Shown here one piece after another: positions 15,485 to 43,767 of a DNA stretch of 64,000 nucleotides. The stretch is taken from assembly GCF_000407365.1 (NCBI RefSeq), contig NZ_ASVU01000001.1:1211501-1275500 (forward strand), given 5' to 3'. Position 1 is the stretch's first letter. Each line of letters begins with the position of its first letter. The notes under the pieces were generated by a model. That model had not been told where the DNA came from and did not search any database. It was given only the letters and a program-made list of their open reading frames with translations. The translations under genes were made by a program, and so were the position numbers. Origin of the DNA: Enterococcus asini ATCC 700915. GTDB taxonomy: Bacteria > Bacillota > Bacilli > Lactobacillales > Enterococcaceae.

Positions 15485-15611
15485 AGTTGAGAAATAAAGA
15501 AGGAGCACCCGCTTCTCGCCTGAGTGAAAAATTTTGCTGGGCTGATAGGTTTCAGACTACATAGGTGTAGTGTGAGTTTGGGTGCGAGTTCGAATGTGAA
15601 CTCGTTTTTTT
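15485..15611 (+). promoter_or_regulatory. L20-type leader with terminator
   Basis: The 5' leader of infC-rpmI-rplT. It holds GCACCCGCTTCTCGCC near its start and GGGTGCGAG near its end, which can pair, and finishes with the hairpin CGAGTTC/GAACTCG (15585-15604) and seven T. In Firmicutes this operon is known to be controlled by ribosomal protein L20 through such a leader, by premature termination. I infer the same here from position and layout. Confidence 0.75.
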
Positions 15612-15637
15612 GTTTCTCTGAATATACCTGGAGGTGA

Positions 15638-24644: not shown

Positions 24645-24650
24645 TACAAT
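24645..24650 (+). promoter_or_regulatory. Extended -10 of riboswitch transcript
   Basis: TGCTACAAT (TACAAT at 24645-24650) lies 22 bases ahead of the riboswitch P1 stem. No good -35 is seen at 17 bases, so the TG extension may compensate. Confidence 0.5.
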
Positions 24651-24671
24651 GAAGAAAATTCAATAATGGCA

Positions 24672-24812
24672 CAAAAGTCAGCGGGAACGAGGTGCAACTC
24701 CTCGACAGTCCCTTTCTACTGTAACACGGACGAACGCTCACCACTCACTGGGTATAAGCTTGGGAAGAGGAGCAAGTAGGAGGAAGTGAAGTCAGGATAC
24801 CGCTGATTTTTG
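24672..24812 (+). promoter_or_regulatory. Cobalamin riboswitch
   Basis: Conserved aptamer pieces in order: GGGAACGAGGTGCAACTCC, then CAGTCCC and CTACTGTAA, and the B12 box AAGTCAGGATACC (24789-24801). The closing stem P1 is CAAAAGTCAGCGG (24672-24684) with CCGCTGATTTTTG (24800-24812), 13 pairs with one G-T. This matches the AdoCbl riboswitch consensus as I know it. The expression platform downstream has a terminator hairpin at 24904-24934 before the start of the lipoprotein gene, so ligand binding most likely shuts transcription off. Confidence 0.9.
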
Positions 24813-24903
24813 GCACTGGGCATGATAACAGGGGGAGCTGTCCAGCAACCATTGTTTAACTACTCCTACGAATGGTAGGCGTCTTTTTAAACATGGCTGC
24901 TGG

Positions 24904-24934
24904 AGGCACTCTGTAAAACCAGGGTGCCTTTTTT
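24904..24934 (+). terminator. Riboswitch-controlled terminator
   Basis: AGGCACTCTG (24904-24913) and CAGGGTGCCT (24920-24929) followed by T. It lies between the cobalamin aptamer and the lipoprotein gene. A smaller CCTAC/GTAGG hairpin (24865-24879) with CTTTTT lies ahead of it and may be part of the switch. Confidence 0.8.
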
Positions 24935-24962
24935 GTGTGAAAAAAAGAAAAGAGGAATTATG

Positions 24963-25367
24963 ATGAAAAAAGCAAAACGATTGATGGTCTTTGTGCTGGC
25001 GTTCTTAGTGGTAGTGGGATTAGGCGCTTGTGGCCAAAAGGCGGACACGACAGCCTCCTCTTCTTCGACTACGGCTTCCACTACGGCGGCAGTCAAAGCC
25101 ACGGTGATCATCCAGGAAGATGGCAAAGAAAGTGACAAACAAGAGGTCGCTTTGGCCAAGGATACCAGCTTGTTTGATGCCATGAGTGAAAACTTCGATA
25201 TCAAAGATGACAATGGCTTTATCACCAGTATCGACGGCAAGGAACAAGACAAAGCGGCCAATAAATATTGGACCTTCACGATTAACGACGAACAAGTCAA
25301 TGTGGGGGCCAAAGATGTCACCGTGGCCGATGGGGATAAAATCATCTTCAATCTGGCTGGCTTCTAA
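24963..25367 (+). CDS. DUF4430 (transcobalamin-like) lipoprotein
   Basis: 134 residues. Signal peptide with lipobox GLGAC (Cys about 21), a Ser/Thr-rich spacer (ADTTASSSSTTASTTAA), then a small beta domain with the DUF4430 features SLFDAMSENFDIKDDNGFIT, YWTFTINDEQVNVGA and DGDKIIFNLAG. DUF4430 resembles the C-terminal domain of transcobalamin and intrinsic factor. The gene sits behind a B12 riboswitch, so an extracellular, lipid-anchored cobalamin-binding or uptake-aiding role is a strong inference. The ATG at 24963 has AGAGG seven bases upstream (ATG 24960 is possible too). Its transporter is not adjacent. Confidence 0.88.
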   Translation: MKKAKRLMVFVLAFLVVVGLGACGQKADTTASSSSTTASTTAAVKATVIIQEDGKESDKQEVALAKDTSLFDAMSENFDIKDDNGFITSIDGKEQDKAANKYWTFTINDEQVNVGAKDVTVADGDKIIFNLAGF

Positions 25368-25440: not shown

Positions 25441-25489
25441 AAAAAGCAACGTCGCTTCTATGAATTCATGGAAGCGACGTTGCTTTTTT
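25441..25489. terminator. Bidirectional terminator
   Basis: An 18-base stem, AAAAAGCAACGTCGCTTC / GAAGCGACGTTGCTTTTT, around a 12-base loop. It ends the lipoprotein gene and also the convergent GNAT gene, whose last codons lie inside it. Confidence 0.92.
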
Positions 25490-26143: not shown

Positions 26144-26200
26144 TTGCTTTTTGCAAGGAATTTGCCTAAACTAAAGAAACGAGACTGATAATCATTCTCA
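26144..26200 (+). promoter_or_regulatory. Siderophore operon promoter with Fur box
   Basis: TTGCTT (26144-26149), 17 bases, TAAACT (26167-26172), then TGATAATCATTCTCA (26186-26200), which matches 13 of 15 positions of the Bacillus Fur consensus TGATAATNATTATCA. The box covers the start region of the transcript, so iron repression by Fur is likely. Confidence 0.85.
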
Positions 26201-26219
26201 TTTAGAAAGGAGGACCGCC

Positions 26220-27161
26220 ATGAAAAAATTTCTACGAGGGCTGATTCTATTCGTTGTCGTGATGCTTTCGTTATTTATCGGGGTTAAGGATTTGGATTGG
26301 CGGGTCTTTTTTCAAGGGGAACAGCAATTGATCTTCTGGGCGACCCGCTTGCCCCGCACCGTGAGTCTGTTAGTAGCCGGGAGCACCTTAAGCGTGTGTG
26401 GTTTGGTGATGCAGCAGCTGACCCAAAATAAATTTGTATCCCCAACTACGGCAGGAACCATGGACAGTGCCCGTTTAGGCATTCTCGTGGTGATGATTTT
26501 CTTGCCCAATGCGCCTTTATTACTACGCTCGACCGTGGCTTTTCTCTTTGCTTTTGGTGGGACCCTTTTATTTTTGCAGCTGACCCGCTTTCTTCCCGGA
26601 AAAAACCAAGTCATGGTGCCCTTAATCGGGGTTATGTTTGGCAACATCATCGGTTCCATTGCGACCTTTTTTGCCTATCAACTGCAATTGGTGCAAAATA
26701 TGTCCTCTTGGTTACAGGGCAATTTTGCCACCGTCATGCGGGGGAGCTATGAACTGTTGTATCTAGCAATTCCTTTGTTAGTCATTATTTATTATTTCGC
26801 CTATCACTTTACCGTGGCAGGCATGGGAGAAGACGTGGCCCAAAACCTCGGCTTGAACTTTCGCCGGGTGCAGTTTCTGGGGTTAGGCCTAGTGGCTTTG
26901 GCCAGTAGTTTGGTGCTAATTATGGTGGGCACGGTACCTTTTCTCGGAGTCATCGTCCCGAACTTGGTTTCCTTGCGTTATGGAGATCAGATGAAAAACA
27001 CATTGGGCTTAACCGCTTGGCTAGGCAGCGTCTTTTTGATTGTCTGTGATATTATCGCTCGGATCGTGATTCCCCCTTACGAAATTCCCGTAAGTGTCAT
27101 CGTCGGGGTGATCGGCAGTCTGCTCTTCATTTTTCTTTTGGTTAGGAGGCAGGCGGCATGA
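26220..27161 (+). CDS. Ferric-siderophore ABC transporter permease 1 (FecCD family)
   Basis: 313 residues with about eight to nine membrane helices and FecCD signatures: FWATRLPRTVSLLVAGSTLS near residues 39-58, LVMQQLTQNKFVSPTTAGTM, and GTVPFLGVIVPNLVSLRYGD near 240. It forms the membrane channel with the second permease. The arrangement of two different permeases, an ATPase and a binding lipoprotein resembles the petrobactin system YclNOPQ of Bacillus. The start has AGGAGG, and the Fur box lies just upstream. The stop overlaps the next start (ATGA). Confidence 0.92.
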   Translation: MKKFLRGLILFVVVMLSLFIGVKDLDWRVFFQGEQQLIFWATRLPRTVSLLVAGSTLSVCGLVMQQLTQNKFVSPTTAGTMDSARLGILVVMIFLPNAPLLLRSTVAFLFAFGGTLLFLQLTRFLPGKNQVMVPLIGVMFGNIIGSIATFFAYQLQLVQNMSSWLQGNFATVMRGSYELLYLAIPLLVIIYYFAYHFTVAGMGEDVAQNLGLNFRRVQFLGLGLVALASSLVLIMVGTVPFLGVIVPNLVSLRYGDQMKNTLGLTAWLGSVFLIVCDIIARIVIPPYEIPVSVIVGVIGSLLFIFLLVRRQAA

Positions 27162-28111
27162 AACGAAAAATATGGGGGGCTTTTGTCCTTTTAGGGGTGC
27201 TAGCAGTGGGGGCAATCCTGTTATTTCTCACTTACCGCACCTATGGCAATTGGGATTTTGCTTTGAAGCTCCGGGGCAAGAAGCTAGCGGCTTTAGCCTT
27301 GGTGGGTATCTTGACCAGCTTTGCTACGATTAGCTTTCAAACGGTGACGGAAAATCACTTTTTGACGCCGAATATTCTGGGCCTAGACTCGCTGTACGTT
27401 TTGATTCAAACCGTTTCCTTTTTTGTCTTCGGCGGGGCCCAAATGCTCAGTCAGCAAAGTCTGGCACAATTTCTCGGGAATATCTTTTTGGTCACTTTGC
27501 TGAGTACGCTACTAGCCAAAGCCTTACTGAAAAATCGCAACCTGTTTTTGTTATTAATGGTGGGGATGATTCTCGGCACCTTTTTTAGTAGTATTAGCAC
27601 TTTTTTGCAGGTCATCATGGATCCCAATGAATACGACTTGCTCCAAGGCAAACTCTTCGCTAGCTTCGGCAATGTGGACAGCCAGTTTTTAGGCATTGCT
27701 GCAGTGTTGGGTCTAGTTTTAATCAGCTTATTGTGGTACTGGGCGCCGAAATTGGATGTTTTGCATCTAGGTCGGGACCAAGCGATTAATCTAGGCATTC
27801 AAGTGGATCACTTCCAGCTTGTGCTACTGATTATCGTCAGTATGTTAGTGGCGATTTCCACAGCACTAGTGGGCCCGGTGACCTTTTTAGGCTTTATCGT
27901 GGTCAATGTCAGCTACCAACTCTTTGCCACTTACGAACATCGAATACTTTTTAGCGGTGGGGCACTCTTGGCCTTGGTCGCTTTAGTGGGCGGTCAGTTT
28001 TTAGTGGAACAAGTCTTTTCTTTAAACACCACGCTCAGTGTGGTAATCGAATTTGTCGGCGGTATTTATTTTGTAGCAAAAATCATTCAAGAAAGGGGCA
28101 AACAAGCATGA
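27158..28111 (+). CDS. Ferric-siderophore ABC transporter permease 2 (FecCD family)
   Basis: 317 residues, second membrane subunit. Typical pieces: AALALVGILTSFATISFQTV, NHFLTPNILGLDSLYVLIQT and TALVGPVTFLGFIVVNVSYQ. It overlaps permease 1 by four bases and the ATPase gene by four bases, so the three are translated together. By order it corresponds to YclO of the YclNOPQ type. It has no signal of damage and belongs to the Fur-controlled operon. Confidence 0.92.
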   Translation: MKRKIWGAFVLLGVLAVGAILLFLTYRTYGNWDFALKLRGKKLAALALVGILTSFATISFQTVTENHFLTPNILGLDSLYVLIQTVSFFVFGGAQMLSQQSLAQFLGNIFLVTLLSTLLAKALLKNRNLFLLLMVGMILGTFFSSISTFLQVIMDPNEYDLLQGKLFASFGNVDSQFLGIAAVLGLVLISLLWYWAPKLDVLHLGRDQAINLGIQVDHFQLVLLIIVSMLVAISTALVGPVTFLGFIVVNVSYQLFATYEHRILFSGGALLALVALVGGQFLVEQVFSLNTTLSVVIEFVGGIYFVAKIIQERGKQA

Positions 28112-28866
28112 TGGAAATGAAAGAAATAAGCAAAAGTTACGGCAAAAAACAGGTGGTGCAAGACATTGACTTACACATTGCCACCGAGAAGCTGACGGCT
28201 TTTATCGGACCAAATGGCGCCGGCAAGAGTACGTTACTTTCCATCGCCAGCCGCTTGATTGAAAAAGATCGAGGGGAAATCTATCTGGATGGCAGTGAGG
28301 TCAAGACGTGGAAGTCCAATGAACTAGCGCAAAAGCTGTCGATTTTAAAGCAATCCAATGGCGTTTCCTTGAATATTACGGTGGAAGAGTTAGTCAACTT
28401 CGGCCGTTTCCCCTATTCAAAGGGGCGCCTGACGAAAAAAGACCGGCTAAAAGTCAAAGAGGCACTCTTGGCTCTCGGGCTGATGGATTTGGCAGAACAG
28501 CCGATCAATACCTTATCCGGGGGCCAGCTGCAACGGGCGTATATCGCCATGATTTTGGCTCAAGACACGGATTATATCCTCTTAGATGAACCTTTGAACA
28601 ATTTAGATATGAATTACGCAGTCCAAATGATGCAAACTTTGCGCAGTCTGGTGGATGATTACGGCAAGACGGTCTTGATCGTCTTACACGATATTAATTT
28701 CGCCGCCAGTTACGCAGACGAAGTGGTGGCCATGAAAGACGGCAAGCTCTTTGCCCAAGGCCCCACGGAAGAAATTATCCAAAGCTCGGTGTTGAATCGT
28801 TTATATAATATGGAAATCAAGATTTGCGAAATCGAAGGAAAACGATTTTGTATGTATTTCCGTTAA
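28108..28866 (+). CDS. Ferric-siderophore ABC transporter ATPase
   Basis: 252 residues. Walker A GPNGAGKST (residues 33-41), signature LSGGQLQRAYIAMILAQD (about 136-153), Walker B YILLDEPLNNLD and H-loop VLHDINFAASYADE. It powers siderophore import through the two permeases. It overlaps permease 2 (ATGATG at the junction), and the binding-protein gene starts 20 bases later. It corresponds to YclP-like ATPases. Confidence 0.95.
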   Translation: MMEMKEISKSYGKKQVVQDIDLHIATEKLTAFIGPNGAGKSTLLSIASRLIEKDRGEIYLDGSEVKTWKSNELAQKLSILKQSNGVSLNITVEELVNFGRFPYSKGRLTKKDRLKVKEALLALGLMDLAEQPINTLSGGQLQRAYIAMILAQDTDYILLDEPLNNLDMNYAVQMMQTLRSLVDDYGKTVLIVLHDINFAASYADEVVAMKDGKLFAQGPTEEIIQSSVLNRLYNMEIKICEIEGKRFCMYFR

Positions 28867-28886
28867 AAAAACTTAGGAGGAAGTTT

Positions 28887-29837
28887 ATGAAAAAAGTAGT
28901 GTATACCCTGTTGGCCCTAGTGGCAGTCACCTTGGCAGGCTGTGGCAGTAATCAAAAGACAGCTAGCAGTAATAGTGAAACCACCAGTAACAGTCGTGCT
29001 GCCAGTATCATGGTCAAAGATAGCGACGGTGCTGAAGTCAAAGTCCCTACAAATCCTGAAAAGGTCGTGGTCTTTGACAATGGCTCACTGGACACCATGG
29101 ATGCTTTAGGCGTCGGGGATGCGGTGATCGGTGCCCCAACGGAAAACTTGCCAGAATACCTAGCTACTTACAGCGATGTGGAAAATGCTGGGGGCATCAA
29201 AGAACCAGACTTGGAAAAAATCAATCAACTGCAACCGGACTTGATCATCATCTCAGGGCGCCAAAGTGACTTTAAGGAAGACTTGAGCGCCATTGCACCG
29301 ACTTTGTATCTAGCCGTAGATGGCAGCGACCCTTGGAACTCCACGAAAGAAAATATCACTACTTTGGCAAAAATCTTCCAAAAAGAAGAGGAAGCCAAAA
29401 CGCAAATCGCTGACTTAGAAGATGAAATCGCAGAACTGAAAACCGGTGCAGCCAAAGCAGGGAAAGCGTTAGTCGTCCTCGTCAATGAAGGACAACTTTC
29501 CGCATACGGTGCCGGTTCACGCTTTGGCATCATCCACGACACCTTTGGCTTTGCTCAAGCAGATGATCAAATCGAAGCTTCGACACACGGGCAAAGTGTT
29601 TCCTATGAATACGTCTTGGAAAAAAATCCCGATGTGCTCTTCGTAATCGACCGCACCCAAGCCATTGGTGGGGATGATACGAACAACAACGTGGCAGACA
29701 ATGAACTGGTGAAAGAAACCAACGCCGGGAAAAATGGCAAGGTGATTACTTTGCAACCAGATGTCTGGTACTTGAGCGGTGGGGGACTCGAATCTACCCA
29801 AACCATGCTAGAAGATGTGCAAAAAGCACTGGAGTAA
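28887..29837 (+). CDS. Siderophore-binding lipoprotein
   Basis: 316 residues. Signal peptide with lipobox LAGC (Cys about 18), then a short Ser/Asn linker and a periplasmic-binding-protein fold of the FecB/FhuD class: NPEKVVVFDNGSLDTMDALG, EPDLEKINQLQPDLIIISGR and NPDVLFVIDRTQAIGGDDTN. The last matches the YclQ/FatB style. It is anchored outside the membrane and delivers the ferric chelate to the permeases. AGGAGG lies six bases ahead of ATG 28887. It is the last gene of the operon. Confidence 0.93.
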   Translation: MKKVVYTLLALVAVTLAGCGSNQKTASSNSETTSNSRAASIMVKDSDGAEVKVPTNPEKVVVFDNGSLDTMDALGVGDAVIGAPTENLPEYLATYSDVENAGGIKEPDLEKINQLQPDLIIISGRQSDFKEDLSAIAPTLYLAVDGSDPWNSTKENITTLAKIFQKEEEAKTQIADLEDEIAELKTGAAKAGKALVVLVNEGQLSAYGAGSRFGIIHDTFGFAQADDQIEASTHGQSVSYEYVLEKNPDVLFVIDRTQAIGGDDTNNNVADNELVKETNAGKNGKVITLQPDVWYLSGGGLESTQTMLEDVQKALE

Positions 29838-39028: not shown

Positions 39029-39547
39029 TTAGTGTTTCACAAAAAAGCGATGAAACAAGGTTTGGAACACGGGATAAAGCAGCAGATAGAAGACCAGATT
39101 TCCCCCTGCATGGAGGGCATCAAAGGGCAGGCCTTGGAGCCAATAGGGCCAAAAGACGCTCATACCATAGAGAAAATAATTGAAAATCGAATAGAGAAAG
39201 CCGTATAAAAAGCCCATGGCACCAGCTAAAATGCCTTGTAGCCACAGATGTTTATGAACCAGGGGCAGACGGGCCAGGGTGGAAAAGACCAAAAGGATGC
39301 CCAGATAGCTCAAAAACTGGCCCAAGGTCCAAATGTCGAAGCCCACAAAAAGATTGGTGACGACTAAGGAAATGGCCATGACTAAAAGAGCTTCCGGTAA
39401 ACTTAAGAAGAGACTCAAAAAGAGCAAAATGGCGGTCATTGGCTGAACATTTGGCAAAAAAGTAAAGGAAAGGCGACCTACCACACAGGCGGCGCTGAGT
39501 AAAGCCAGATAGGAAATCCGGCGGGCGTTTAAACTGGATTTGGACAA
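39029..39547 (-). CDS. ECF transporter S component (possibly cobalamin, CblT/CbrT-like)
   Basis: 172 residues, about six membrane helices, the substrate-binding subunit of an energy-coupling-factor importer. The pattern LPNVQPMTAILLFLSLFLSL, then TNLFVGFDIWTLGQFLSYLG (Asn-Pro-x-Gln-Pro and W-T-x-x-Q) recalls the CblT branch predicted to carry vitamin B12. This is memory-based and not proven. The best start is TTG at 39547 with GAGGTGA six bases upstream. Earlier in-frame codons lack a site. The ECF ATPases and EcfT must be elsewhere. It is divergent from metF-metH, whose MetH needs B12. A structured leader precedes it. Confidence 0.75.
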   Translation of the reverse strand: MSKSSLNARRISYLALLSAACVVGRLSFTFLPNVQPMTAILLFLSLFLSLPEALLVMAISLVVTNLFVGFDIWTLGQFLSYLGILLVFSTLARLPLVHKHLWLQGILAGAMGFLYGFLYSIFNYFLYGMSVFWPYWLQGLPFDALHAGGNLVFYLLLYPVFQTLFHRFFVKH

Positions 39548-39601
39548 AGAAATCACCTCAAAGGTTGATAGCAACAGACTAGTTTTAGAAGAAGTCTGCC
39601 G

Positions 39602-39690: not shown

Positions 39691-39794
39691 TGTAGCACAC
39701 CCTTTTGTAAGATGGAAGGCGGAATTTTCTGAAAATTGTGTTGGCAATCTGAAAAACGTGGTAAAATAGGAAAAACTTGGGAGGAGTTGGGGGA

Positions 39795-40658
39795 ATGAAA
39801 ATTAGGGAGCTGTTTCAAGAAAATAAAACCGTGATGTCTTTGGAGGTCTTTCCGCCGAAAAAGGAAAGCGGGTTGGAGACGATTTACGACACGTTACAGG
39901 CTTTGGGGAGTCTGGCGCCGGATTTTGTCAGCATTACCTACGGGGCCGGGGGCAGTGGGGGCTGCAATCAGACATTGGAGCTGGCGGCGACCATTAAAGA
40001 ACGTTACGGTATTGAGCCTTTGCATCATTTGACTTGTGTCAATAACGGTACGGAGGACTTATCAGAGCTTTTAGCAGGGATGAAGGCGGCCGATGTGAAA
40101 AATATCTTGGCCTTACGAGGGGATTTGCCAGAGACGGGGGCACCTCGTGAGGATTTTTGCTATGCCAAAGATTTAGTGGCGGCGATTAAGCGTGACCCGG
40201 ACTTTTGTGTGGGAGCGGCCTGTTATCCAGAAGGGCATATTAGCCAAGCCGAGGATCAGGAAAACTATCAACATTTACTGGAAAAAGAACAGGCAGGCGC
40301 GGACTTTTTCATCTCCCAGTTGTTTTTTGATAACGATTGCTTCTATCGTATGGTGGAAGAAGCTAGAAAGGCTGGGGTCACCAAGCCTTTGGTGGCGGGG
40401 ATCATGCCGATTTTATCCAAAGCTCAGGTGCAGAAGATGATTTTCATGTGTGGCTCTTCTTTGCCTTCAAAACTGATAAAATTGATTCATCGCTACGGGG
40501 ACAATCCCCAAGATTTGCAAAAGGCCAGCTTGGAATATGCGTGGCAACAGCTAGGGGATTTGGTGGCTCATGGAGTGGATGGGGTGCACTTGTATACCAT
40601 GAACCGACCGGAAATCGCCCTGCAAACTTTTGATTATTTGCGAGGAGGGAGCTTATGA
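39795..40658 (+). CDS. metF: 5,10-methylenetetrahydrofolate reductase
   Basis: Makes 5-methyltetrahydrofolate, the methyl donor for MetH, using FAD and NAD(P)H. 287 residues. MSLEVFPPKKESGLETIYDT at the N-terminus, FVSITYGAGGSGGCNQTLEL, ALRGDLPETGAP and the folate/FAD region ADFFISQLFFDNDCFYRMVE are all family signatures. ATG 39795 has GGGAGGAG 8 bases upstream. A TAAAAT -10 lies at about 39761-39766. It overlaps the next gene by four bases (ATGA). It is first gene of a compact B12-dependent methionine operon. Confidence 0.95.
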   Translation: MKIRELFQENKTVMSLEVFPPKKESGLETIYDTLQALGSLAPDFVSITYGAGGSGGCNQTLELAATIKERYGIEPLHHLTCVNNGTEDLSELLAGMKAADVKNILALRGDLPETGAPREDFCYAKDLVAAIKRDPDFCVGAACYPEGHISQAEDQENYQHLLEKEQAGADFFISQLFFDNDCFYRMVEEARKAGVTKPLVAGIMPILSKAQVQKMIFMCGSSLPSKLIKLIHRYGDNPQDLQKASLEYAWQQLGDLVAHGVDGVHLYTMNRPEIALQTFDYLRGGSL

Positions 40659-41332
40659 ACAGCGACTTACCAGACGTACCATTAGAACAGCGGGAAATCT
40701 TGCGCTATTTAGGCTACAAACGCCAACACGAATTAACCCCGGAGCTAGTCGAACTAGTAGCAGAAGTCATGGGAGAAGTGCAAAAGGTCAGCCAAGTGCG
40801 CAGCCATTATCAGTTTTTCGATTTGGCGGAAACAAGGACGGGGATCCAAGTTGTTGGTAGTGACTTGGTCTTAAGTGGCACCGCCATTAGCCGCCATTTG
40901 CAAGGAGCGACTTCAGTGGCACTGTTTGCATTGACCTTGGGTAGTGGCGTGGAGCAGGTTATTCGACGCTACGAGATTACCGATTTGACCCACGCTTTGG
41001 TTTTGGAAGCGGCTTGTACGGAATACGTGGAAAAACTTTGTGACCTAACGGAAGCTCGGATTGCCAAGGAGGCACAGGAAAAGGGATTGACGGCTAATCG
41101 CCGCTTTTCCCCGGGCTACGGGGACTTGCCCTTAGCGATTCAGCCGACGTTTTTGGCGACTTTACAAGCCGAGCGTACAGTGGGCATTACGGTAACTGAG
41201 GACTTTTTGATGATTCCCCGAAAATCGGTGACGGCGATCGTCGGCCTGTTTCCTGCTGGGACCACAGCGAAACCTACCCGCAAAGAACCGGACTGGTGTC
41301 AAGCATACTTGTCCAAGGAGGAAAGCAAATGA
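40655..41332 (+). CDS. Free-standing MetH reactivation domain (Met_synt_B12)
   Basis: 225 residues. In E. coli the reactivation domain is the C-terminal part of MetH. Here it is a separate protein. RRFSPGYGDLPLAIQPTFLA (about 150-169) is the signature that binds S-adenosylmethionine and remethylates inactive cob(II)alamin. LTLGSGVEQVIRRYEITDLT and FLMIPRKSVTAIVGLFP support the fold. It overlaps metF and metH by four bases each, so it is made in step with them. It presumably docks on MetH with an electron donor such as flavodoxin. Confidence 0.9.
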   Translation: MNSDLPDVPLEQREILRYLGYKRQHELTPELVELVAEVMGEVQKVSQVRSHYQFFDLAETRTGIQVVGSDLVLSGTAISRHLQGATSVALFALTLGSGVEQVIRRYEITDLTHALVLEAACTEYVEKLCDLTEARIAKEAQEKGLTANRRFSPGYGDLPLAIQPTFLATLQAERTVGITVTEDFLMIPRKSVTAIVGLFPAGTTAKPTRKEPDWCQAYLSKEESK

Positions 41333-43767
41333 AGCTGAAAGAAGCATTGCAAACCGGATTTTTATTGTTCGATGGCGCCATGGGCACCATGCTCCAGGAA
41401 AAAGGACTAGCAGCGGGGATGCAGCCGGAGTATTTTAATCTGACTCATCCGGAAGTCGTCACCGAGATTCATCGGCAATACGTGGCAGCCGGGGCCGATA
41501 TCATCACCGCCAATACGTTTCAGGCCAATGGGCACAAAATTCCGGAAGCCGAATTGCCAAAAATCATCACCGCCGCCGTGAAGTTAGCCAAAGACAGTGG
41601 CGCTCGCTTTGTAGCTTACGATATGGGGCCGATTGGGGCGCTTTTGGCTCCATTGGGCACCTTGAGTTTTGATGAGTCCTATAAATTATTTGCCCAGCAG
41701 GCTCGCTTAGCGGAGCGTGCCGGAGCAGATTTGGTGATTTTGGAAACGGTCAGTGATCTTTTGGAGGCGAAGGCGGCCATTTTGGCGATTAAGGAAAACA
41801 CCGACTTGCCGGTTTTCGTCACTATGACTTATCAAGCAGACGGCCGCACTTTTGTGGGCTGTGACTCGGTGACGGCGACCTTGACCTTGCAGGCGTTAGG
41901 GGTGGATGCTCTAGGCGTCAACTGTTCCCTAGGGCCAAAAGAGCTTTTGCCCGTGGTAGAAGTGATCACTCGCTATGCGCAAGTCCCGGTGGTAGTCCAG
42001 GCCAATGCAGGCTTACCGGAAATGGAAAACGGGGTGACGGTTTACCGCCTGACCCCGGCAGCATATCTGGCAGCCATCGCGCCGATGCTAGATCTAGGGG
42101 TGACCGTAGTAGGGGGCTGTTGCGGCACCACCCCGGCCTTCACTAGCGGCTTGCGAGAACTTTTGGACAGCCGTCAACCGGTCGTGCCAGTAGCGGAAAA
42201 AGTAACCGCCGTGACCTCAGGGGTGCAGACGGTGATCCTAGATGAGCGCTTGACCGTAATCGGGGAACGCCTGAATCCGACAGGGAAAAAACGCCTTCAA
42301 GCCGCGATTCGCCAAAAGGATTTGGGGTATCTCTTAAAAGAAGGCATCCAACAAGTCACTGACGGTGGGGATATTTTAGATGTGAATGTGGGTTTGCCGG
42401 AAATCGATGAGGCGGCCATGATGCAAGAGGTGATTCCTGCCTTGCAAAGCGTAGTCAACGTGCCATTGCAAATCGACTCTTCTTCGGTGGCGGCCATTGA
42501 AGCCGGGGCGCGGATTTACAATGGCCGGCCCTTGATTAATTCCGTTAACGGCAAGCCGGAAACCATGCAGGCGATTTTCCCGATTGCCAAGAAATATGGG
42601 GCGCTGGTGTTAGGCTTGACCTTGGATGAGACGGGGATTCCCAAAACGGCAGCCGGACGCTTACAAGTAGCCCGGCGGATTGTGGAAACCGGAGCCAGCT
42701 ACGGCATCCCCAAAGAAGACATCTTAATCGATCCTTTGGTTTTGACCGCCTCGGCCCAACAGGATCAAGTGCAAGTGACTTTGGACACGCTGAAATTGGT
42801 GAAAGCCGAGCTTGGGGTGCAAACCGTAGCCGGAGTCAGCAATGTGTCCTTTGGTTTACCCAATCGGCCCTTGTTAAACAGTACCTTTTTAGCGGCGGCC
42901 GTGGGGGCAGGCTTGTCTGCGCCAATTTTAAATCCCGGTAGCCAGCAGATGATGGCCACCGTGGCGACACTGCGAGTGATTAATCACCAAGATAAAGACG
43001 CTCAAACTTACATCGACAAAAGTCAAGACTGGCAATTTGGCCCGGGAAATCAATCGGGGACCGGGTCAACGTCAAAGGCAAAAGAGTCTGGAAGCGAGAC
43101 ACCAGCAAACACAGTGCCTAAAACTCAGACGGAGCAATTGCGCCAGTTGATTTTACAAGGACGTAAAGAAGAAACGCCGAATCTGACCCGGCAGTTATTG
43201 GCTGCGAAAACTCCTTTGGAAATCGTCAACGAGGCTTTTATTCCTGCCTTAGACGAAGTGGGGCAAAAATTCGAGGCCGGCAGCTTGTTCTTACCACAAC
43301 TGATGCAAAGCGCCGAGGCGGTGAAAGGTGCCCAAGAAGTGCTGAAGGATTACACTGCAGCTCAAGGAGAAACTGCCAGCAACCAAGGCCGCATTCTTTT
43401 GGCTACGGTGGCCGGGGACATCCACGACATCGGTAAAAATATCGTCAAGATGATAATGGAAAACTACGGCTTTCAAGTGGTCGATTTAGGCAAGGATGTG
43501 CCGATTGAAAGAGTCGTGGCAACCATTCAAAAAGAAGACATCAAGTTGGTGGGCCTGTCTGCCTTAATGACTACCACTGTGCAAAATATGAAAGCCACCA
43601 TTAAAGCAGTGGGAGATGCGGGCCTGGAATGCACCTTTATCGTAGGCGGCGCAGTCTTAAACGAAGACTATCGGGAGTTTGTCGGAGCGGATTACTACGC
43701 CAAAGACGCTCTAGAGTCGGTGAAATACGCCCAAGCATTTTTCGAACAACATCCGGAGTGGGTGTAA
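41329..43767 (+). CDS. metH: Cobalamin-dependent methionine synthase (short form)
   Basis: 812 residues, against about 1230 for E. coli MetH. Domains: homocysteine S-methyltransferase (1-290; zinc Cys in GVNCSLGPKE and VGGCCGTTP), pterin-binding (about 310-560; VIGERLNPTGKKRL, INSVNGKPETMQ), a Ser/Thr/Gly/Lys linker (about 567-600), the helical cap and the B12-binding Rossmann fold with cobalt ligand His in GDIHDIGKNIVKMIM (about 700). The SAM-binding reactivation part is absent and supplied by the gene just upstream. AGGAGG precedes the ATG at 41329. It is the last gene of the operon. Confidence 0.95.
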   Translation: MKLKEALQTGFLLFDGAMGTMLQEKGLAAGMQPEYFNLTHPEVVTEIHRQYVAAGADIITANTFQANGHKIPEAELPKIITAAVKLAKDSGARFVAYDMGPIGALLAPLGTLSFDESYKLFAQQARLAERAGADLVILETVSDLLEAKAAILAIKENTDLPVFVTMTYQADGRTFVGCDSVTATLTLQALGVDALGVNCSLGPKELLPVVEVITRYAQVPVVVQANAGLPEMENGVTVYRLTPAAYLAAIAPMLDLGVTVVGGCCGTTPAFTSGLRELLDSRQPVVPVAEKVTAVTSGVQTVILDERLTVIGERLNPTGKKRLQAAIRQKDLGYLLKEGIQQVTDGGDILDVNVGLPEIDEAAMMQEVIPALQSVVNVPLQIDSSSVAAIEAGARIYNGRPLINSVNGKPETMQAIFPIAKKYGALVLGLTLDETGIPKTAAGRLQVARRIVETGASYGIPKEDILIDPLVLTASAQQDQVQVTLDTLKLVKAELGVQTVAGVSNVSFGLPNRPLLNSTFLAAAVGAGLSAPILNPGSQQMMATVATLRVINHQDKDAQTYIDKSQDWQFGPGNQSGTGSTSKAKESGSETPANTVPKTQTEQLRQLILQGRKEETPNLTRQLLAAKTPLEIVNEAFIPALDEVGQKFEAGSLFLPQLMQSAEAVKGAQEVLKDYTAAQGETASNQGRILLATVAGDIHDIGKNIVKMIMENYGFQVVDLGKDVPIERVVATIQKEDIKLVGLSALMTTTVQNMKATIKAVGDAGLECTFIVGGAVLNEDYREFVGADYYAKDALESVKYAQAFFEQHPEWV

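Follow-up and report, generated by a model that had tools for sequence, protein, structure and literature searches.

Described cobalamin carriers and ECF transporters

ECF transporters have been described with the S component as the substrate-binding protein (PMC5997447). ECF-CbrT of L. delbrueckii (6FNP), composed of an ECF module and CbrT, supported cobalamin-dependent growth of E. coli, and the word lipoprotein is absent from the text of that report (PMC5997447). As ECF-CbrT alone supports growth, a lipoprotein is not essential for transport. A lipoprotein of Lacticaseibacillus rhamnosus, K8Q211 (LRHMDP2_2713, LGG_02295), is named ‘Additional lipoprotein component of putative cobalamin ECF transporter’ in the accessible part of a study in which it decreased by 1.8 log2 with aeration and RtpR by 2.0, and where a riboswitch is not mentioned (PMC9963975). 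K8Q211 is a DUF4430 protein of 14.3 kDa encoded near the AdoCbl-dependent rtpR, an arrangement that recurs at several of the loci described below. As far as the accessible sources extend, the role of such a lipoprotein has been published just as a label and a functional test of the role is apparently absent; none was seen in the open-licence literature on DUF4430, cobalamin and CbrT, which is weak evidence. The names CbrU and CbrV (PMC6722938, PMC8123684) are not tied to the lipoprotein in the accessible text and are hence not used here.

Two E. durans plasmids carry homologues annotated ‘cobalamin ECF transporter’. On one of them, CP012367, a cassette (L133, 2230-6405) comprises an S component, a ribonucleotide reductase, an adenosyltransferase and a DUF4430 lipoprotein, the first and last of which bear that annotation; transposase and integrase genes are annotated nearby. 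Numerous plasmids of enterococci carry a DUF4430 lipoprotein gene (40 Enterococcus plasmid records), and on pCR1A of Enterococcus gilvus the gene order is queG, DUF4430, ECF S component.

A DUF4430 domain has been placed in the C-terminal region of the TCN proteins, according to the accessible part of the source (PMC4350170). The isolated human beta domain has been crystallised with CNCbl and with cobinamide, both bound, the former being represented by 5np4, and extensive washing was needed to strip it of cobalamin (accessible part of PMC5599065). Since the isolated domain holds cobalamin until extensively washed, a beta domain is capable of binding on its own.

The locus described here lies in a stretch of 64,000 nucleotides, referred to as the window, from the 2.57-Mb genome of Enterococcus asini ATCC 700915 (C1:1211501-1275500; G+C content 46.5%). 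Its DUF4430 lipoprotein belongs to the same family as that of the CP012367 cassette; whereas the cassette genes lie together on a plasmid, the window gene stands alone behind a riboswitch, and, in a further difference from K8Q211, it is separated from all cobalamin transporter genes.

The riboswitch and its gene

A cmscan search of the whole window returned two RNA families, a ribosomal protein L20 leader (RF00558, 66.3 bits) at 15491-15619 and a cobalamin riboswitch (RF00174) on the forward strand at 24647-24818. The latter scored 65.5 bits (E 6.3e-14), where the gathering score is 31.5, and spanned the model end to end, positions 1-189. A first-pass annotation, made from the sequence alone, had proposed a cobalamin riboswitch with a 13-base P1 and a terminator, followed by a single gene, and each of these elements was recovered. 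P1 is formed by 13 bp between 24672-24684 and 24800-24812 with a mean pair probability of 0.91 in the partition function. The aptamer stretch 24664-24820 by itself had no more than a moderate folding advantage over shuffled versions, 6 of 200 of which did equally well (z -1.93), so that it is the covariance score that constitutes the evidence for the aptamer. The expression platform holds an intrinsic terminator, a stem at 24902-24931 (+) followed by T's; the stretch 24896-24936 has a folding energy of -18.3 kcal/mol, matched by 1 of 200 shuffled sequences (z -3.49).

A Shine-Dalgarno-like AGAGGA, read off the sequence at 24951-24956, precedes the DUF4430 gene at 24963-25367 (+), which encodes 134 amino acids and has an alternative in-frame ATG at 24960. 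The unit consists of this one gene, as had been annotated: a strong terminator with a 20-pair stem (25443-25486) follows, and the next gene, encoding a GNAT acetyltransferase, is on the opposite strand.

Further downstream, at 26220-29837, lies an ABC importer made up of an ATPase, two permeases of FecCD-like type and a binding protein that most resembles SstD, a lipoprotein for catecholamine-iron (231.5 bits, short of the cut-off of 450). It was considered as a partner of the DUF4430 lipoprotein and rejected. The first permease matched the BtuC model at 135, far below the cut-off of 334. The sequence TGATAATCATTCTCA, which we take to be Fur-box-like, stands ahead of these genes, and the region 26187-29837 probably encodes an iron-catechol importer.

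Predicted operation of the switch

Directly 3' of P1 lies a hairpin at 24816-24845 (24816-24822 paired with 24839-24845, -8.0 kcal/mol) that resembles P13. Such a hairpin has a kissing-loop role in class I cobalamin switches. Here it competes for the 5' strand of a predicted antiterminator. In minimum-energy folds of the growing transcript a long helix formed at 24842-24903, and once the transcript had reached 24918 and 24924, and to some extent already at 24912, about 24828-24847 paired with 24898-24914. This extended antiterminator helix occupies the terminator's 5' half; the two predicted structures share 24904-24913 and are mutually exclusive. With the full leader, the terminator prevailed in the energy model both with and without P1 formed. 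The layout is as expected for a transcriptional OFF switch, ligand control being beyond the reach of energy folding alone. At low cobalamin the leader would form the antiterminator and the gene would be transcribed; with cobalamin on the aptamer, P1 and the following hairpin would form, the antiterminator would be lost, and the terminator would form and switch the gene off. The leader of a riboswitch-led DUF4430 gene in another genome of the genus (G005, L034) has a similar hairpin following P1, and a terminator as well, as judged by eye in the computed fold.

The lipoprotein and its likely ligand

DUF4430 (PF14478, 74.6 bits against a cut-off of 23.8) was the only Pfam domain found in the product, which carries a lipobox, LGAC, with its cysteine at residue 23. 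In an alignment of 30 of 35 lipoproteins (those of 34 relatives and the window), Cys23 was invariant in 30 of 30 rows, as were G92, Q95, W103, N108, G115 and A116. The protein would be exported and lipid-anchored through Cys23. Its lipobox and its homology to lipoproteins encoded beside S components would place it, judging from the sequence, with the accessory components of cobalamin ECF transporters.

An AlphaFold model obtained from the 30 aligned rows had a pLDDT above 90 over most of residues 41-134 (25083-25364, +). Over these residues it has the fold of the beta domains of transcobalamin, haptocorrin and intrinsic factor (5np4, 2bb5, 2pmv, 4kki), with Z of 13.5-14.8 against 8.4 for the next fold, which was MoaD/Urm1-like; entries for the three carriers occupied Foldseek ranks 3-19 (E 3e-6 to 5e-5). 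The suggestion of a surface lipoprotein with a transcobalamin-like domain is thus borne out at the level of a predicted model, the vertebrate carriers being out of reach when the lipoprotein was compared with PDB sequences alone. In contrast to those carriers, with which it shares 14-20% identity, the window protein is bacterial, bears a lipobox and lacks an alpha domain in the same chain. As it consists of 134 amino acids with a beta domain only, and not of the two domains of transcobalamin and intrinsic factor, it was not filed as a transcobalamin.

The closest solved structure by both sequence (E 1e-4) and fold (Z 15.4) was 3u7z, RUMGNA_00854 of Ruminococcus gnavus, which is titled ‘putative metal binding protein’ and has no established function. 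That title would suit a domain binding a ligand other than cobalamin, whether peptide, metal or glycan, with the riboswitch reflecting a general B12-stress regulon. Genomic context offers this reading one further point: among the named loci described below, seven of eight from Lactococcus had neither an S component nor any other cobalamin marker searched for near the DUF4430 gene. The reading is nevertheless very unlikely, since apart from 3u7z the top group of structures consisted entirely of vertebrate cobalamin carriers, matched over the beta domain, and since the genes found around DUF4430 elsewhere include S components, cobalamin adenosyltransferases, ribonucleotide reductases and eut genes. 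In the seven Lactococcus loci themselves (L075, L077, L080, L082, L084, L085 and L115) the ligand may differ from that of the other lipoproteins; the three of them viewed gene by gene (L077, L080 and L115) have a nitroreductase-like gene, as judged from its sequence, close to the DUF4430 gene.

Linkage to ECF S components in relatives

Among 105 genomes of the Enterococcaceae, the family of the window, DUF4430 was found in 82, a CbrT-like S component in 83, QueG in 85, the MetH cap domain in 12 (one a weak match with an internal stop) and RF00174 in 30, of which 27 were above the cut-off. DUF4430 matches numbered 106; 12 in open frames of at least 250 amino acids were set aside and the 94 in shorter frames are referred to as small. 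Within 1 kb of a same-strand CbrT-like S gene lay 58 of the 94 small genes, from 55 genomes and nine genera; 36 did not lie so. A strong CbrT-like gene followed the DUF4430 gene in 30 of the 58 and preceded it in 8, while in 20 a weaker S component (22-50 bits to the S component at 39029 of the window) preceded it. Named loci arranged in this last manner carry a dedicated EcfT and EcfA. By genome, 79 possessed both a small DUF4430 gene and an S component, three DUF4430 only, four the S component only and 19 neither (Fisher 3e-14); the corresponding counts for small DUF4430 against QueG or MetH were 78, 4, 8 and 15 (Fisher 2e-9). The genomes share ancestry, so that both Fisher values overstate independence and describe the tables only.

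A contig search found 158 relatives, from which 80 named loci were kept; these partly repeat the family genomes and the two sets of counts are not additive. An S gene lay on the same strand and no more than 1 kb away in 57 loci and otherwise within 4.5 kb in 7, another cobalamin marker was present in 4, and 12 had none of the genes searched for. Recurrent neighbours in several other loci, identified on representatives, were cobalamin adenosyltransferase (PF01923), ribonucleotide reductase (PF02867), EutQ and ethanolamine-use genes, and a PocR-type regulator. The window gene had been described as stand-alone, with no adjacent transporter. Locally this holds, as no cobalamin transporter gene lies beside it; it does not extend to most of its relatives, given the 58 of 94 family genes and 57 of 80 named loci with an adjacent S gene. 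The window gene belongs to a widespread set, from which it stands detached.

Riboswitches recur in front of these genes. Nine small DUF4430 genes of the family carry the domain 263-346 bases behind an RF00174 match, leaving out two that lie further behind (gaps of 1960 in G012 and 3597 in G094). In eight of the nine a CbrT-like match starts 26-65 bases after the domain, the exception being the window gene. Four of the nine RF00174 matches reached the Rfam cut-off, namely those of the window's genome (65.5 bits), G005 (69.1), G039 (44.1) and G022 (31.6), and five were below the gathering score at 24.6-29.4 bits (E at most 1e-3); the riboswitch of G039 is better fitted by the AdoCbl family RF01482 (81.7 bits). 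RNA families were also scanned for in 28 of the 80 named loci. RF00174 stood directly before the DUF4430 and S genes in all seven Bacillaceae loci (L078, L081, L087, L094, L121, L128, L130) and RF01482 did so in both Desemzia loci (L117, L119), while scanning the other 19 at gathering score returned no cobalamin riboswitch. Matching the B12 box as a text pattern picked out six of the 80 loci and missed L117, L119 and L130, which cmscan detected; it was dropped. A scan of 12 loci at gathering scores, which returned one tRNA only, gave no riboswitch at the DUF4430 loci of two genomes of the window's genus (G002, G004). The survey of DUF4430 genes behind cobalamin riboswitches called for in the first-pass annotation has thus been run in part, and the arrangement recurs in Enterococcaceae, Bacillaceae and Carnobacteriaceae, with an S gene nearly always next.

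The riboswitches and neighbouring genes of many relatives lend good support to a role in cobalamin uptake of the ECF type, and the window lipoprotein is probably a cobalamin-repressed capture protein for ECF-type B12 import. Its beta domain would bind a corrinoid at the membrane and pass it to an ECF S component. A lipoprotein that binds corrinoid and only stores it, shields it or competes for it at the surface, with no part in transport, would be in keeping with the performance of ECF-CbrT in E. coli without a lipoprotein (accessible part of PMC5997447) and with the DUF4430 genes that have no S gene nearby; the operon linkage and co-occurrence with S components argue against it, and we regard it as unlikely.

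Candidate partners in the genome

The window's genome encodes two CbrT-like S components, at 39029-39574 of the window and at 1.41 Mb, both of which matched the S subunit of ECF-CbrT. The capture protein might serve either or both.

The product of 39029-39574 (-), 14 kb from the lipoprotein gene, matched 6fnp_A over residues 9-165 (E 1.1e-29 to 1.2e-29) and is a CbrT homologue, in agreement with the ECF S component annotated there. On the other strand, at 39777-43767, are genes for a 293-aa protein, presumably MetF as named from its sequence, a MetH activation-domain protein (PF02965) and MetH (PF02574, PF00809, PF02310, PF02607). The B12-dependent methionine synthase is accordingly split, with a separate activation-domain protein, and its genes diverge from the CbrT-like gene. 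Cobalamin riboswitches, MetH and QueG are present in the genome despite the absence of a PduO-type adenosyltransferase (PF01923), the one type searched for among the PduO, BtuR and EutT types; as no PduO-type enzyme was found, AdoCbl synthesis is not claimed for this genome.

It had been suggested that the lipoprotein hands B12 to the S component at 39029. Delivery to this CbrT homologue, which would feed MetH, is a reasonable possibility, though it falls short of being the best-supported one. MetH, a B12 user, adjoins the S component; a general EcfT-type gene is present at 972280; and as an S gene follows eight of the nine riboswitch-led small DUF4430 genes, 39029 could be the partner that became detached. 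Against this, no RNA family was found before 39029, a cobalamin riboswitch included, at E up to 5, and the lipoprotein groups with kin from a different type of system, described below. A hidden riboswitch was also considered and rejected, the leader folding no better than its shuffles (z +1.32). In G002 and G004, of the same genus, the DUF4430 and CbrT-like genes also lie apart, which is neutral in this respect.

The second cobalamin-riboswitch locus of the genome, at C1:1407893-1417968 (L006 11894-19512 and L007 36-2068), consists in order of the riboswitch, a 1672-aa DUF4430 and toroid protein, a 429-aa DUF4430 lipoprotein, EcfT, EcfA and an S component (E 1.5e-10 to the 6FNP S subunit). The chance that the window lipoprotein is the missing last piece of this dedicated-module system is, in our estimate, about even. 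Four related loci (L043, L044, L046 and L048, the last with no giant protein seen) have a small DUF4430 gene after that of the S component, and at the 1.41-Mb locus this place is empty. Cobalamin riboswitches were found at two places in the genome, this locus and the window gene. In a tree of the small lipoproteins the window protein stands with those of L061 and L047, both of which have that dedicated-module system (support 99/78, not starred). Its closest match, at 58% identity, is from G061 (L030), a genome which likewise has the dedicated-module system with no small lipoprotein in place and an unlinked small lipoprotein elsewhere, and no strong CbrT-like gene. The domain is short, however, and the tree, computed from 97 different rows of 117 (identical rows dropped) and 96 columns, has open forks and resolves little; moreover, in G005, of the same genus, the riboswitch-led DUF4430 gene lies directly before a CbrT-like gene. 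The placement among kin, of moderate support, and the shared kind of riboswitch control tip the balance slightly to the dedicated 1.41-Mb system over 39029 as the partner, and the two are not mutually exclusive.

The 1672-aa protein combines DUF4430 with two toroid-like domains (matches to Pfam prenyltransferase just under the cut-off) and a C-terminal hydrophobic segment, a two-domain layout resembling that of intrinsic factor. A modelled toroid (pLDDT 75) matched the alpha domains of haptocorrin, transcobalamin and intrinsic factor with Z of 15.4-16.4, terpene cyclases and sugar epimerases being tied or higher (15.4-18.0). Homologues are encoded in L043, L044, L045 and L047. In L046 (1516-4421, G028) two shorter open frames, of 381 and 564 amino acids, stand in place of the protein, so that the gene may be decaying there.

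Implications

Little is understood of how B12 auxotrophs among Gram-positive bacteria acquire corrinoids when these are scarce. The conserved lipoprotein poses the question of whether it binds cobalamin and speeds uptake through CbrT-type transporters. We put it as an evenly balanced proposition that ECF B12 importers have a dedicated capture protein, a lipid-anchored beta domain loading the S component, joined in some Enterococcaceae by giant surface proteins with DUF4430 and two toroids behind a riboswitch. If this is true, the architecture of intrinsic factor would have a working bacterial counterpart. A conserved, often riboswitch-controlled beta-domain lipoprotein also bears on the origin of the vertebrate B12 carriers.
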